Shown here: one piece after another, positions 11,085 through 27,922 of the stretch | How the letters are laid out: every line of letters begins with the position of its first letter | Position numbering within the stretch: position 1 is the stretch's first letter | DNA from: a virus | Reading direction: 5' to 3' (one strand) | Virus record (IMG/VR): IMGVR_UViG_3300021139_000107 | Coordinates: 1-27,922 of that record | Length of the DNA stretch: 27,922 nt | Notes under the pieces: generated by a model | Told to the model about the DNA's origin: nothing | The model's input: the letters and a program-made list of their open reading frames with translations, nothing else | The model's database searches: none | Translations under genes and position numbers: made by a program

Positions 11085-11519
11085 TTAGAGAAACCACATC
11101 GGAGGAAGAACCGATGAAGTAGTTTTAGTTGTAGTAGTGCTTGTTGTTGCCGTTACTGTCTGCTTTGGCATAAGGATACCAAGTCCTAAGAACGAATCAG
11201 CAACCAGAGCATTAGCTAGTGCGGAGCCCGAAGGTCCAGTAGGTCCTACTGATCCTTGTGGGCCAGTAGGTCCTGTAGCACCATTGGATCCGCTAGTGCC
11301 GTTAGCTCCAGCAGGTCCTGTAGGGCCTGTTGCGCCAGTAGCTCCAGCTACACCGTTAGTTCCAGAAGAGTAAGGCAGGCTGTTCCAAGCCGTTACTCCA
11401 TCACCAATTTTAAATTTGCCGGTGTCGTATTCTGAAGCGAATTCGCCTTGAGCAAGTACTGGATTAGCTGCTGTCCAACCAGCCGCTGTTCCGCGTCGTA
11501 ACTGAATGACTACAGCCAT
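11085..11519 (-). CDS. Mtd-like N-terminal domain plus short collagen-like stalk
   Basis: Residues 1-50 match the short trimerising domain seen at the N-terminus of major-tropism-determinant and phage hyaluronidase-like fibres: 'IQLRRGTAAGWTAANPVLAQ' followed by G-E-F, D-T-G-K-F-K-I-G-D-G-V-T-A-W-N-S-L-P-Y. Residues about 52-98 are G-X-Y collagen repeats ([10 protein letters not shown] type). The last 45 residues are T/S-rich and end in a hydrophobic PPMWFL. The whole is only 144 residues, much shorter than a full fibre, so it may be a small separate trimeric appendage or a partner of the 750-residue collagen fibre directly upstream. The start abuts the stop of that gene (TAAATG), and GGAGG inside its end serves as ribosome site. 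Confidence 0.8.
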   Translation of the reverse strand: MAVVIQLRRGTAAGWTAANPVLAQGEFASEYDTGKFKIGDGVTAWNSLPYSSGTNGVAGATGATGPTGPAGANGTSGSNGATGPTGPQGSVGPTGPSGSALANALVADSFLGLGILMPKQTVTATTSTTTTKTTSSVLPPMWFL

Positions 11520-13772
11520 TTAACTTATTCCTCCAGCATTTATATAGAGCGGACCGCCGTAAACAGAATCGGGTGCACCACCGTCTACATTTAGTATTGT
11601 ATAGCCTGAAGGGCCTGTTGGACCGACTAAGCCAGTAACACCTTGTGGGCCTTGTGGACCGGTAGCACCTGTAGGACCTGTTGATCCAATTCCTTGCGGA
11701 CCTGTGGCACCGGTAGGTCCGGTGACACCTTGAATTCCATTTGCACCGGCTGGACCTGTTGGACCCAGTGGGCCTTGAGGACCTGTGGCACCAGTTAAAC
11801 CAGCAATACCTGCAGCGCCGGTAGCACCAGTTGGACCAGTTACACCAGCAGAACCTGTAGGACCTTGAATTGGTCCAACGTTTAACCATGAAGCTGTATT
11901 AGCTACCCAGACGTAAAGTTGTCCTTGAACAACATAACTATCTCCAGGGGAACCTGTTGGGTGAGCTGTTTGCAAATCACCAACAGAGTTGAATGTTCCA
12001 AGAATTGTTACTGATGTACCAGCAGGACCAGTTGCACCAATAGAACCAGTAGGGCCTGTAGGACCAGGATTACCGATAGCACCTTGAGGACCAGTTGAAC
12101 CAGTTGCGCCAGTTTGTCCGGCAGGACCTGTCGCACCAACTTGACCAGCAGGACCCATAGGACCTGTAGGGCCAGCAACACCTGTAGGACCAAGCGCACC
12201 TGTAGGACCAGTTGCTCCGGTTAATCCAGTTGGACCTAATGGTCCTTGTGGACCGGTTGCGCCAACAGCACCAGTTGCACCGGTCGCACCTGTCAAACCA
12301 GTTGGACCAGTTACGCCAATGTCACCTTGTGGACCTGTTGGACCGACTGGGCCGATGTTACCGGTTGCACCTGTTAAACCTGTGGCACCAGTTGGGCCAG
12401 GAACTGTTGAAGCAGCTCCAGTAGGACCTGTAGGACCAAGAATGTTTCCAACGTTTTGCCAAGCAACAAGCGAAGGATTCCAAACTTCAAGAGTACCGTC
12501 AGCAAGAAGGTACGCATCTCCAGCAGAACCAGAAGGATGCGCTGCAATCAAAGCGGCTTGCGTTGCGTACTGTCCCTTAATAGTTACAGCAGAACCTGTT
12601 GTTCCTTGTGGACCAGTAGGACCGGTGGAACCAAGCGCACCTTGTGTGCCAGTTGGACCGGTGTTACCTTGTGGACCAGTTGCACCAGTAGGTCCAGTTG
12701 ATCCAGTTAAACCTGTTGGGCCAACCGAACCTTGTGGCCCTGTTGCACCTTGCAGACCAGTTGCGCCGGTTGGACCGGTCGCACCAGTTAAACCTGTTGG
12801 TCCAATAGGACCTTGTGAACCTGTCGCACCAAGCGCACCCGCGGTTCCTTGAGGACCTGTTGGTCCGGTTGAACCTGCTGGGCCAGTTGCTCCAGTAGAA
12901 CCTGTTGGGCCTTGTGGTCCAGTAGAACCGACTGGACCTACTGATCCAGTTGCGCCTACAGCACCTGCAGGACCGGTCGCACCCGTTGCACCTGTCTGTC
13001 CTTGTGGACCGACTGATCCTTGTGGACCTGTTGGGCCTGCCAAACCTGTTGGACCTGTAACAGTTGATGCGGGGCCTGTAGCGCCTGTAGGTCCAATTGG
13101 ACCAACAGCGCCTACGTTACCTTGTGGACCTGTTGGTCCAGTGGCTCCAGCAGTTCCTGACGGTCCTTGAATGTTTCCAACATTTACCCAAGAGTTTGTG
13201 TTGGTTGACCATACGTAAAGATTGCCAGCTACTAAGTAAGCTTGTCCTGAAGAGCCGCTTGGGTGTGCAGCTAAAAGTGAATTGTAATCTGTGTAAGAAC
13301 CAAGGATAGTTACGCCAGTTCCTTGAGGGCCAGTGGCTCCAATAGGACCAGTTACGCCTTGCGGACCTTGTGCTCCCGTTGGTCCAGATGATCCCGCAGG
13401 ACCAGTTGGTCCTTGAACATTTCCAACGCTAATCCAAGAGTTAGTGTTTGAGGACCAAACATAAAGATTACCTTGAACAATGTATGCGTTTCCTACAACA
13501 CCTGTTGGATGAGCAGCTACAAGAGATGCGTAGTCTGAGTAAGAGCCTAAGATTGTGACGCCGGTGCCCGCTGCGCCTGTTGGACCTGTAGGTCCTGTAG
13601 AACCGGAAGGGCCTGTTGGACCTGTGGCTCCAGCGGCTCCTGCTGAGCCTAAACTAATTTCCTCAACGACTAAGTCGCTGGCATTAGTGGCAGAAAAACT
13701 AAATGGGGCGCCTAGCCCAGAGCCTTGACAAACGAGGCAGTTGCAACCTTCAGGATGTTGTAAAAATGGCAT
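11520..13772 (-). CDS. Collagen-like fibre with four inserted beta modules
   Basis: The 750-residue protein has a Cys/His-rich N-terminus (H-P-E-G-C10-N-C12-L-V-C15), a short linker to about 42, then collagen-type G-X-Y repeats (mostly GPTGPQG, GATGPAG) at about 46-70, 121-152, 203-394, 446-585 and 637-723. Between them lie four related 50-residue globular modules (71-120, 153-202, 395-445, 586-636) of the form V-T-I-L-G ... A-H-P-T/S-G ... G-x-A/S-Y-x-V ... G-x-L-Y-V-W ... W-x-x-V-G. The C-terminus (724-750) has the V-D-G-G-x-P-D-S-V-Y-G-G pattern common at the end of phage fibre proteins. The collagen parts should form a trimeric rod with the modules as knobs, on the virion surface. Threonine is the commonest Y-position residue, a possible glycosylation site. 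No Shine-Dalgarno is seen; the start lies 4 bases after the previous stop. Confidence 0.9.
11865..13562 (-). repeat. Four dispersed ~150-bp module repeats within the collagen gene
   Basis: Four homologous in-frame segments lie at 13413-13562, 13167-13316, 12438-12590 and 11865-12017. The first two are closest to each other at protein level; the third is the most diverged (E for Y in the L-x-V-W strand). They are separated by collagen-type repeats that are themselves highly repetitive at the DNA level (GGN-CCN-ACN runs). Confidence 0.85.
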
Positions 13773-24985: not shown

Positions 24986-26122
24986 TTATGCCCAAGGAGT
25001 AAGTGTGACTGCTGTACCAGCTGCAATTGAAGCTGCACCAGCTGCAACGCTCTGAGTCTTGATAGTTCCAGTTGTTCCCTTAACAGAACCTGAAAGGCCT
25101 GTGTCAGTAACTGAAGATGTACCGTTAGAAACAAAGCTGACTGTGTTTGTAGCTGATCCTGTAACAATCCATGAACCGTCAAACTCAGCATCGCTGCTTG
25201 TAAGACCGGAGATCGTGATTGATGTTCCAACTGGGAAGGCTGCGCCAGCACCGGTTGCGGTGATTGTGGCAGTAGCGTTACCAAGTGTACGAGAAACAGC
25301 TGTAACTGTGATTGGAGAGTTTGTAGCTGCTGAAGCTGTTGTAGGAACAAGCTCAACGTCGTTCATAGCGTCTGTAGCAGAAGCTGTTGCAAAGCCAAGA
25401 ACGCTTGGAACTAGGACATAGTCTACGCTAGCAACGTAAGCGCCATCATTTGCGGTAGTCTCATCGGTGTAACGAGCTGTACCTGAAATGTTGATGTAGC
25501 TTCCTGTACCTGAGCCAGCTACTGTGAATGTGTACTGGTTAGCTGAAGCAACTGTAAGGTTGGTTCCATCAAGACCGGTACCTGTGATGTTAACTGTATC
25601 GCCAGCCTTTAGAAGGTTGTTTGGCGCAGTGTAGGTCTGTACGCTTCCGTTACCAGATGCCTGTGTAATGCGGTATACGGCCTGGTGCATAGCTGTGTAA
25701 AGTGGGTAACCTGCATATGCGGATTCAGCGCGAACATGGTTATCCATGTGAACGTTTGATGTGATTCCGTTGTTAAGGTTTACTGTTACATCTGCGTAAG
25801 AAAGGTTTGCTGAAGCAACCTGAGTTGTTGCTGCCCAACCTGTGTCGGCACCAGCTTCACCAGGAACTGTGCGCATAAGTCCAGCTGAGGTAGTTACTAC
25901 AGCTGCAGCATTGCCTCCACCGAAGTTAGAAACAGACGCGCGACGAACGTCGTTTGGCTGAAGCGGGAAGTTGCCCCAAGCAAAGTCGACAACAACGTTG
26001 CCTGCAGAGTCGGTAGCGTGACCATCGTTATTTGTACCGCCAGCTTGTGCGGCGATAGCTACGGCGTAAGCGCCTGTAGCCTTTGAATCACCCTGTGGCG
26101 CAGGGGAAGAATAGCTTGACAT
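24986..26122 (-). CDS. Beta-rich virion surface protein with two inserted modules
   Basis: The 378-residue protein is rich in Ala, Gly, Ser, Thr and Val and poor in charge. Residues 30-150 form a non-repetitive domain ('DFAWGNFPLQPNDVRRASVS', 'HVRAESAYAGYPLYTAMHQA'). Two Ig-like beta modules follow at about 155-215 (G-D-T-V-N-I-T-G-T-G ... Y-T-F-T-V-A-G) and 268-350 (P-V-G-T-S-I-T-I-S-G ... F-D-G-S-W-I-V-T), separated by a stretch that includes 'GAYVASVDYVLVPSVLGFAT'. Related modules occur in the 1116-residue protein at 7722-11072. It lies apart from the main structural genes, between the oxygenase gene and the lysis gene, with its own strong terminator; GAGAGG precedes the ATG by 8 bases. 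It could be an abundant decoration or tail-tube-like protein. No family is recognised. Confidence 0.6.
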   Translation of the reverse strand: MSSYSSPAPQGDSKATGAYAVAIAAQAGGTNNDGHATDSAGNVVVDFAWGNFPLQPNDVRRASVSNFGGGNAAAVVTTSAGLMRTVPGEAGADTGWAATTQVASANLSYADVTVNLNNGITSNVHMDNHVRAESAYAGYPLYTAMHQAVYRITQASGNGSVQTYTAPNNLLKAGDTVNITGTGLDGTNLTVASANQYTFTVAGSGTGSYINISGTARYTDETTANDGAYVASVDYVLVPSVLGFATASATDAMNDVELVPTTASAATNSPITVTAVSRTLGNATATITATGAGAAFPVGTSITISGLTSSDAEFDGSWIVTGSATNTVSFVSNGTSSVTDTGLSGSVKGTTGTIKTQSVAAGAASIAAGTAVTLTPWA

Positions 26123-26204: not shown

Positions 26205-26747
26205 TTATCTAGCCCACTGCATGACGCAATACTGATATCCGGAAGTTACAGGCTGGTTTATATGCTTGTACATGTACCCGGATGGGAAAATTAGCAGGTC
26301 TCCTTTGGCGGGCTTATAGCTGACCCCAAAATTAGGGAAGAACATATCTCCGCCCTCGTACCCATCATTTAAGAAATAAATGACAGAGACTCGACGGTGC
26401 CATTGAGGACTATCATCTATAAGGTTAGATGGCTCAATTTGTTCGCCAAACTTCCAGATACCGTAGGCATCCCAGTTTGTGGTCTCTACGTCGTAAAAGT
26501 TCAGATACTCCTCCATAGGGCCTTTAAAGGCTTCAAAGAGGGTTGTACCTAGCCCATGGAGCAAAAGGTCTTTAGAGGGGGCAAAGTCGTCTAAAACGAC
26601 CGTAGGGTCGGGAAATGGGATGACCAATACCCCGTTCTCCAGCTCAACAACGTTAGTCTCAACGGAGTAGTTAATGTCCGGGATTAACCGGTCCATATCT
26701 TCTAGTTGAAAGTTATAGAGGGCTATTCCTGGGCCAAGGTTGTTCAT
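26205..26747 (-). CDS. 2-oxoglutarate/Fe(II) oxygenase-like (prolyl-hydroxylase type), altered active site
   Basis: I choose the ATG at 26747, which shares ATGA with the previous stop, giving 180 residues; an in-frame ATG at 26777 lies deep inside the upstream gene. The C-terminal half has the phage P4H-like pattern: 'NLIDDSPQWHRRVSVIYFLN' at 108-127, N-D-G-Y-E-G-G-D at 127-134, 'YKPAKGDLLIFPSG' at 144-157, H162, and P-V-T-S-G-Y-Q-Y-C-V-M-Q-W at 166-178. Relatives usually have H-I-D-D where this protein has L109-I-D111-D, and S-G-x-R-Y where it has S-G-Y-Q172-Y. So the first iron-binding His and the 2-oxoglutarate-binding Arg appear replaced, while D111 and H162 remain. Either it is inactive, or the ligands differ. 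If active, hydroxylation of Pro or other residues (for instance in the collagen-like fibre) would be the natural guess. The alignment is by eye. Confidence 0.8.
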   Translation of the reverse strand: MNNLGPGIALYNFQLEDMDRLIPDINYSVETNVVELENGVLVIPFPDPTVVLDDFAPSKDLLLHGLGTTLFEAFKGPMEEYLNFYDVETTNWDAYGIWKFGEQIEPSNLIDDSPQWHRRVSVIYFLNDGYEGGDMFFPNFGVSYKPAKGDLLIFPSGYMYKHINQPVTSGYQYCVMQWAR

Positions 26748-26962
26748 TCGACTGCGTCCCACTTTCCTACTGGACAAGAAGCTGGAGCCAGCTTAGTTTT
26801 AAGCGCCATAAGGCAACCGCACTTAGTGCACTGCTTGGTGAACTTAATTAGATGCTCACAGCCCTTGCAAATTTCAAAACGACGATCGCGTTCTTCATCA
26901 GAAGCTCTAGGGACAGAGTCGTCCCACAGGTCCCAAGGGCGAACAGGTTTTTGGTCTGACAT
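26744..26962 (-). CDS. Small Cys-rich phage protein (DUF6171-like)
   Basis: The 72-residue protein has a charged N-terminal part and a Cys-rich core: F-E-I-C32-K-G-C35-E-H-L ... Q-C45-T-K-C48-G-C50-L-M ... S-C63-P-V-G-K-W. This order (C-x-x-C, then C-x-x-C-x-C, then C-P-x-G-K-W) is a common small phage and environmental-virus family that I recall as DUF6171-like; the six Cys suggest zinc or a small cluster. It stands directly before the oxygenase gene with a 4-base overlap, so both are probably made together. Function unknown. Confidence 0.75.
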   Translation of the reverse strand: MSDQKPVRPWDLWDDSVPRASDEERDRRFEICKGCEHLIKFTKQCTKCGCLMALKTKLAPASCPVGKWDAVE

Positions 26963-26977
26963 GGTAATTATTCTATC

Positions 26978-27922
26978 CTACATCGCAAACAAGCAGTATT
27001 TGCAAGCATTCAATTTGTTTGTCACTCCTTGAGCCACCGCAGGAGAAACGCCTGTAGAGGTAGAGGTAGAGCTTGTGGTCGTAGTTGCTGCCGCTGTGGA
27101 AGTGGTTTTTGTAGACGTTGAAGCAGCGGTAGTAGACGACCCACCTGACGCAGCTAGGACTCCGGCTAAGGTCGAGGTATTTACTGACGTGGTGGTGGTC
27201 TGTGTAGCGGTAGGTGTAGTAGTAACTACGGTACTTGTAGTGCCTGTGCTTGCCGTGGTTTTAGAAGATGAGCTGGTTGAGACGCTAGTTGTTCCAGAGC
27301 TGGCCGATGATGTTGCCGAAGCTGTCGAAGGCCCAGTAATCGTCTGAGATGCTGGCACCGAGGTCTGTCCGTTGAAGTATTGAACAGTGTAGGTAGCTCC
27401 TGGGGTAAGGGTATACCCAGCCGGCAGAGTCCCAGTAGCAGTCCCCGATCCTCCTGTAGAGGTGGTTCCCGCATTAGTAGACAAGCTAGTTAAATAAACA
27501 CCGCTACTAGGAAGTCCTGGTCCGTAAACAACTATGTTAGTTGGCGTGTAAGTAGCGGATGAAGACGAGACGCCATTGGTTGGAGTCAACGCCACTGATA
27601 CATAAGTGCCAGTAGTTCCGGTGGCGGCCCCAGCGCCCGTAGTCTGAACTGTTTGATTGGGCGTAGTCTGAACTGTTTGATTGGGGGCGGAAACAGTCAC
27701 GGGCTGTGCTATTGCCGCACTATTAGTCGTATTTGGTACGCAAGTAAATGTAGGGGTTGAGGAACCTGAAGGATAACTTCCGCAACTTGAGTATGTTCCA
27801 AGACCACCATTACAAGAAGATGCAGAGGGAGATGCTTGTGTACAAACGTTATTTACATAAGTTCCCGCGCACCCGGTTCCAGGCATTGTGCAAGGTCCGG
27901 TAAGTGTTGTGGTTGTGGTTTG
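26978..27922 (-). CDS. Thr/Ser-rich repetitive protein, 3' part only (runs off the right edge)
   Basis: The frame stays open to the window end: the 12 codons before the ATG at 27886 read Q-T-T-T-T-T-L-T-G-P-C-T, of the same composition, so the true start is outside. The visible 314 residues have several Cys near the left end of the chain (G-C-A-G-T-Y-V-N-N-V-C, S-S-C-N-G, S-S-C-G, F-T-C), a Thr/Pro/Gln repeat (N-Q-T-V-Q-T-T-P twice), a beta domain ('GPGLPSSGVYLTSLSTNAG', 'GATYTVQYFNG') and a long mucin-like Ser/Thr run, and it ends L-N-A-C-K-Y-C-L-F-A-M. It looks like an extracellular or virion-surface stalk rich in possible O-glycosylation sites. No family is recognised; charge is near zero until the C-terminus. 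Confidence 0.6.
   Translation of the reverse strand, partial: QTTTTTLTGPCTMPGTGCAGTYVNNVCTQASPSASSCNGGLGTYSSCGSYPSGSSTPTFTCVPNTTNSAAIAQPVTVSAPNQTVQTTPNQTVQTTGAGAATGTTGTYVSVALTPTNGVSSSSATYTPTNIVVYGPGLPSSGVYLTSLSTNAGTTSTGGSGTATGTLPAGYTLTPGATYTVQYFNGQTSVPASQTITGPSTASATSSASSGTTSVSTSSSSKTTASTGTTSTVVTTTPTATQTTTTSVNTSTLAGVLAASGGSSTTAASTSTKTTSTAAATTTTSSTSTSTGVSPAVAQGVTNKLNACKYCLFAM
27638..27685 (-). repeat. 24-bp direct repeat, two copies
   Basis: Two perfect tandem 24-base units (27638-27661 and 27662-27685, CGTAGTCTGAACTGTTTGATT plus GGG when read on the plus strand) encode P-N-Q-T-V-Q-T-T twice. Identity at all 24 positions shows a recent duplication. Confidence 0.9.

Follow-up and report, generated by a model that had tools for sequence, protein, structure and literature searches.

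The closest described systems are the viral P4H-type 2OG-Fe(II) oxygenases, exemplified by the PBCV-1 enzyme vCPH (5c5u/5c5t), and the use that viruses make of prolyl hydroxylases has been called cryptic (PMC9301287). The stretch of DNA analysed here, hereafter the window, is a 27,922-bp virus record whose large terminase is ~54% identical to those of its nearest annotated phages, Streptomyces phage BRock and relatives; BRock carries an annotated tail sheath. An ORF at 26205-26747 on the minus strand (P0001) encodes 180 aa plus a stop, and its product is orthologous to phage prolyl-4-hydroxylase-type 2OG oxygenases. It shares the fold and the sequence family (PF13640, phrog_61) with vCPH and other viral P4H-type proteins, but differs from phage and viral P4Hs in being ~20 residues shorter and in lacking the HxD His, the 2OG-binding Arg/Lys and two 2OG-contacting Tyr. 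The gene and its immediate surroundings are as follows.

24986..26122, minus strand: P0002, a 378-aa Thr/Ala-rich protein directly behind the P4H-like gene, closest to the alleles of L028, L095 and L020 (61-63%)
26205..26747, minus strand: 180-aa putative pseudoenzyme of P4H fold, ortholog of L017:3039-3641 and L037:2450-3055
26744..26962, minus strand: 72-aa zinc-ribbon-like protein (DUF6171/phrog_13558), with an ATGA overlap with the P4H start
26978..27886, minus strand: C-terminal part of a Ser/Thr-rich protein whose frame is still open where the window ends, at the position of a Thr-Pro-repeat protein in relatives

Family membership is supported by the Pfam profile 2OG-FeII_Oxy_3 (PF13640), which matches with an E value of 5e-8 and 34.2 bits against a curated cut-off of 27, although only over residues 112-180, with the HxD position outside the match. 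PHROGs assigns the protein to the 2OG oxygenase family phrog_61, and its matches among annotated phages, all below 60% identity, are mostly from cyanophages. An AF2 model built on an alignment of 39 relatives has a pLDDT of 89.5 and a pTM of 0.86, values that, with relatives as input, speak for compatibility of the sequence with the fold rather than for actual folding. The best Foldseek match of this model is the viral collagen P4H of PBCV-1 (5c5u, E 3e-8), and VIA-align superposes it on the mimivirus L230 lysyl hydroxylase (Z 16.6, rmsd 2.2, 152 aligned) and on PHD2 (Z about 16, rmsd 2.7, 163 aligned). As modelled, the 180-aa protein is a P4H-type double-stranded beta-helix whose fold is predicted to be intact.

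A terminase search of viral contigs identified syntenic orthologs in L017 and L037/L034. The window protein is 39-41% identical to the L017 and L037 orthologs and aligns with both without a gap from Trp92 to the C-terminus, which places L109 on the iron-binding His, D111 on the Asp, H162 on the distal His and Q172 on the Arg. On the plus strand, the letters are AAG at 26421-26423 and CTG at 26232-26234, corresponding to the codons CTT (Leu109) and CAG (Gln172). A preliminary description of this locus had proposed a P4H-like fold with these two key residues replaced, and the orthologs, the profile and the predicted structure all back that proposal; the codons, translation and start it gave agree with the sequence, and both the gapless ortholog alignment and the homolog profile bear out its reading that Asp111 and His162 are kept. 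The positions concerned are listed below.

26448..26450, minus strand: codon of Phe100, Tyr in 23 of 23 aligned relatives
26421..26423, minus strand: Leu109 (CTT), at the position of the HxD iron-binding His
26415..26417, minus strand: Asp111, the kept Asp of HxD, from the ortholog alignment and homolog profile
26373..26375, minus strand: codon of Phe125, Tyr in 23 of 23 aligned relatives
26262..26264, minus strand: His162, the kept distal His, from the ortholog alignment and homolog profile
26232..26234, minus strand: Gln172 (CAG), at the position of the 2OG-binding Arg/Lys

We take the Phe100 and Phe125 sites to be the equivalents of PHD2 Tyr303 and Tyr329, both of which contact 2OG. The facial triad HxD...H is incomplete in the window protein, since its first His is Leu109, and the Arg/Lys that binds the 2OG C5 carboxylate is replaced by Gln172; this position is occupied by Lys in the P4H of B. 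anthracis aligned to the family profile. Together with Tyr100 to Phe and Tyr125 to Phe, four of the six first-shell residues are lost. Compared with the relatives, Ile also stands for Gln104 and Trp for Leu98, and ~20 residues, among them an Arg that is invariant in the relatives, are missing through an in-frame deletion; Asp111, Asp112, His162, Trp178 and the EGG turn remain. If positions are instead counted from Gly101 relative to cyanophage proteins, the HxD position falls on Ser107, a register excluded by the gapless ortholog alignment.

Across a profile alignment of 110 distinct homologs, His109 is found in 107, and Asp/Glu111, His162 and Arg/Lys172 are each found in 109. One of the three His109 exceptions (L013) is an alignment shift, its HSE motif being present, and besides the window protein the HxD His is truly absent only in L153. 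The window protein is the sole one of the 110 without Arg/Lys172 and the sole one missing both residues. The preliminary description had suggested looking for a clade marked by L109 and Q172, but in the collections searched the combination belongs to one phage only: protein patterns in viral contigs, two degenerate DNA patterns and genome contigs yielded no further carriers. Separately, some records are rich in such genes, with sixteen P4H-like places in that of L110 (112,158 bp) and about eight or more in each of L126, L127 and L141, and one P4H-like protein, at L140:2-793, has Asn for the HxD Asp (HIN) and is a candidate for a non-canonical site.

One may argue that so rare a combination is a sequencing or assembly artefact at the Leu109 and Gln172 codons, each of which is, as the preliminary description pointed out, a single base away from the canonical one. 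The same phage, however, is found on a second contig (IMGVR 3300000439_001523; L001/L016); over 6452 bp it has six mismatches to the window, every one of them located where the contig ends, and the gene itself has none. This identical copy argues against assembly error, though both contigs may share a sampling site. Moreover, the two codons are part of a wider pattern of change (F100, F125, I104, W98 and the deletion), and the protein as a whole shares only ~40% identity with its orthologs. An artefact has therefore largely been refuted already, and we give it a very small probability.

The metal ligand and the 2OG-binding residues are lost together, which makes catalysis very unlikely. With His109 to Leu one iron ligand would be gone, with Arg172 to Gln the basic residue that anchors 2OG, and with Y100F and Y125F the hydroxyls of two 2OG-contacting tyrosines, while polar side chains around the pocket would have given way to hydrophobic ones; the Fe(II)/2OG site is not expected to assemble and no hydroxylation is expected. 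Non-canonical sites do exist in the 2OG family, for example in halogenases without the Asp, and the retention of Asp111, Asp112, His162, Trp178 and the EGG turn could suggest a protein that is still an enzyme, with a metal site in which a water or partner residue joins Asp111 and His162, or with some other chemistry. The loss of the metal His, however, coincides with that of Arg172 and the two 2OG-contacting Tyr, which has probably abolished co-substrate binding as well. Nor is His117 a substitute ligand, as the preliminary description had allowed: in the intact relatives L100 and L104, the equivalent of His117 occurs alongside His109. We consider continued enzyme activity improbable, and on residue identities the window protein is very probably catalytically dead, which strengthens the earlier suggestion of a pseudoenzyme.

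The surroundings of the gene differ from those of its orthologs in the nearest phages. In L017 and L037, the order is a Thr-Pro-repeat protein, a first P4H (P4H-A), a 243-aa protein, a 72/73-aa DUF6171 zinc-ribbon protein and a second P4H (P4H-B), followed by a 200-aa protein, an NAD sugar epimerase, an O-FucT-like protein, a structural-looking protein, small genes and the terminase (cassette extent L017:155-7000 and L037:337-6979). The window gene is the syntenic ortholog of P4H-B. The 200-aa protein is 2OG-oxygenase-like by eye and by its resemblance to phage neighbours, with nothing in Pfam and phrog_2954 in PHROGs, and the O-FucT-like protein has a Pfam E value of 1e-5, under the curated cut-off. 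Upstream proteins contain 9-12 [Ser/Thr]-Pro per 100 aa where an O-FucT-like gene is present (L017, L037, L066) and few in the others compared. The L017/L037 cassette is a candidate for one that hydroxylates and glycosylates a virion protein. In the 27.9-kb window, the 243-aa protein, the 200-aa 2OG-oxygenase-like protein, the epimerase and the O-FucT-like protein have no match, and the only match to P4H-A is the P4H-B-type gene itself; of the P4H/sugar cassette, only the zinc-ribbon gene and P4H-B are kept.

The zinc-ribbon gene recurs immediately upstream of P4H genes in phages, many of L101-L118 among them, and its product is possibly a functional partner of P4H. In the window, its stop overlaps the P4H-like ATG by ATGA. 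Its product is intact and not accelerated, being 62-69% identical to its counterparts in L017 and L037, which are 64% identical to each other; for the P4H, the corresponding values are 39-41% and 57%. On the other side, P0002 starts 82 bp behind the P4H stop and is of the L028/L095 type, and its counterparts in L028 and L095 are preceded by unrelated genes of a different module. The gene arrangement thus points to a probable recombination edge just behind the P4H-like gene.

Proteins with collagen-like sequence are also encoded in the window, and a glycosyltransferase lies elsewhere in it.

11520-13772: 750-aa collagen-like protein; of its 156 Gly-X-Y triplets, 83 have Thr at Y and 69 have Pro at X
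11085-11519: protein that combines an Mtd N-terminal domain with collagen repeats, after the collagen-like protein
1069-2115: family 2 glycosyltransferase, near tail-protein genes

The collagen-like protein is unlikely to be the main target of a classical P4H, with Pro at Y in only 2 of the 156 triplets. No collagen match was found in the records of the P4H-bearing relatives L053, L070 and L083, which are fragments.

Whether the fold is still in use or is merely a remnant is a closer call. According to one explanation, the gene is a young relic: recombination removed the cassette, the active site of a now useless enzyme is drifting, and the frame is open for lack of time. The absence of the cassette partners from the neighbourhood fits this explanation, as does the mosaic junction behind the gene. 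In a tree of weak topology, the window branch is 1.63 compared with about 0.83 for orthologs, and in relative-rate tests the window protein has about twice as many unique changes in most comparisons, with P below 0.05 in 13 of 16 that are not mutually independent; such a fast branch also suits a relic. When random substitutions were simulated, the frame was still open with P 0.23 after 40 of them and with P 0.04 after 100. The preliminary description had argued from the intact frame that the gene is not simply decaying; the frame is indeed intact, but the simulation makes this a weak argument and excludes an open frame as proof of function. The dN/dS of the window gene against its orthologs is not usable because synonymous sites are saturated, and the only other copy of the gene, on the second contig, is identical.

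Comparison with L110 and L119, which have similarly long branches and intact active sites, is more informative about where the changes fall. With position 172 scored as the sixth active-site column and Lys allowed there because relatives carry Arg or Lys, active-site residues are changed in 4 of 6 cases in the window protein and in 0 of 12 in L110/L119 (P 0.005; the positions were chosen by known roles, but the value is optimistic, since two of them had already been flagged). Conserved scaffold columns, in contrast, are changed in 6 of 26 cases in the window protein and in 8 of 55 in L110/L119 (P 0.36), and variable columns likewise do not differ (P 0.83). Within the window sequence alone, the difference between active-site and scaffold change has P 0.06, and an earlier, different column set gave P 0.14. 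This distribution weakly favours a pattern in which catalysis was released and the fold retained. Against a relic stand the lack of any detectable excess of change in scaffold and variable columns over intact relatives of similar divergence, and the nature of both Tyr changes, which go to the fold-sparing Phe. In addition, phages tend to delete useless genes quickly. The intact, unaccelerated 72-aa neighbour with its overlapping ATGA speaks for a maintained role. The in-frame deletion and the few scaffold changes, including A5G, W36L and V176M, nevertheless fit loosened constraint too. On balance, we think a maintained role modestly more probable than a young relic: the combination of lost catalysis and a maintained non-catalytic role seems to us marginally better than an even bet, while the relic has a substantial, though lesser, probability.

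The window gene is a P4H-B ortholog that has retained the predicted fold and remains coupled to the 72-aa zinc-ribbon gene. If a role is maintained, the remaining groove may now serve, without catalysis, to bind or scaffold a former partner, which could be either the zinc-ribbon protein or a substrate protein of the virion. The preliminary description had already raised such reuse, for binding or in the virion. It is indirectly supported by the release confined to the active site and by a second, conserved group of P4H-family proteins without iron ligands, with the young relic still standing beside it as an alternative. The members of that group are as follows.

L153, 1295-1861: P4H-family protein without iron ligands
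L142, 12180-12731, minus strand: P4H-family protein without iron ligands
L148, 1277-2704: P4H-family protein without iron ligands

In these three proteins, the HxD His is replaced by Pro and the distal His by Tyr, while the Arg is kept, in a register that reads as gapless against an intact L148 paralog. The P4H part of L148 is fused behind a ~290-aa domain that resembles luciferase-like monooxygenases by eye, a resemblance not confirmed by Pfam. Their dN/dS of about 0.15-0.27 at dS 0.8-0.9 indicates purifying selection, and hence dead P4H-family proteins can be maintained in phages. The clade thus resembles the window protein in being of phage P4H family without iron ligands, but it has lost different residues and is an independent lineage. 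A broader idea, which we regard as rather unlikely, is that prolyl-hydroxylase paralogs have repeatedly been converted by phages into binding proteins that are conserved but do not catalyse; if true, the window gene and this clade would be two independent cases, for example of subunits that recognise and hold Pro-rich or collagen-like virion proteins while leaving them unmodified.

A natural ortholog with a predicted intact fold and a disabled active site would provide a built-in control for a role of the fold free of chemistry, and its active-site-intact relatives belong to a cassette with sugar genes. It would also mean that family-level annotation as a 2OG oxygenase, for which the Pfam cut-off is passed here, over-calls enzyme activity in viromes. 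Searches of the literature on 2OG pseudoenzymes and phage P4Hs yielded little. Among known systems, the active-site-intact phage P4H orthologs share synteny with the window gene. PHD2/EGLN1 and the mimivirus L230 lysyl hydroxylase domain match the fold of residues 1-180 at Z about 16, but in them the facial triad is complete and the enzyme active, and they are only 14-15% identical to the window protein. JARID2-type JmjC proteins have a 2OG-oxygenase fold without activity and recruit partners (PMC4687429). They are like the window protein in combining this fold with absent activity, but they are eukaryotic, of JmjC type and associated with chromatin, and thus offer an analogy rather than a close relationship.
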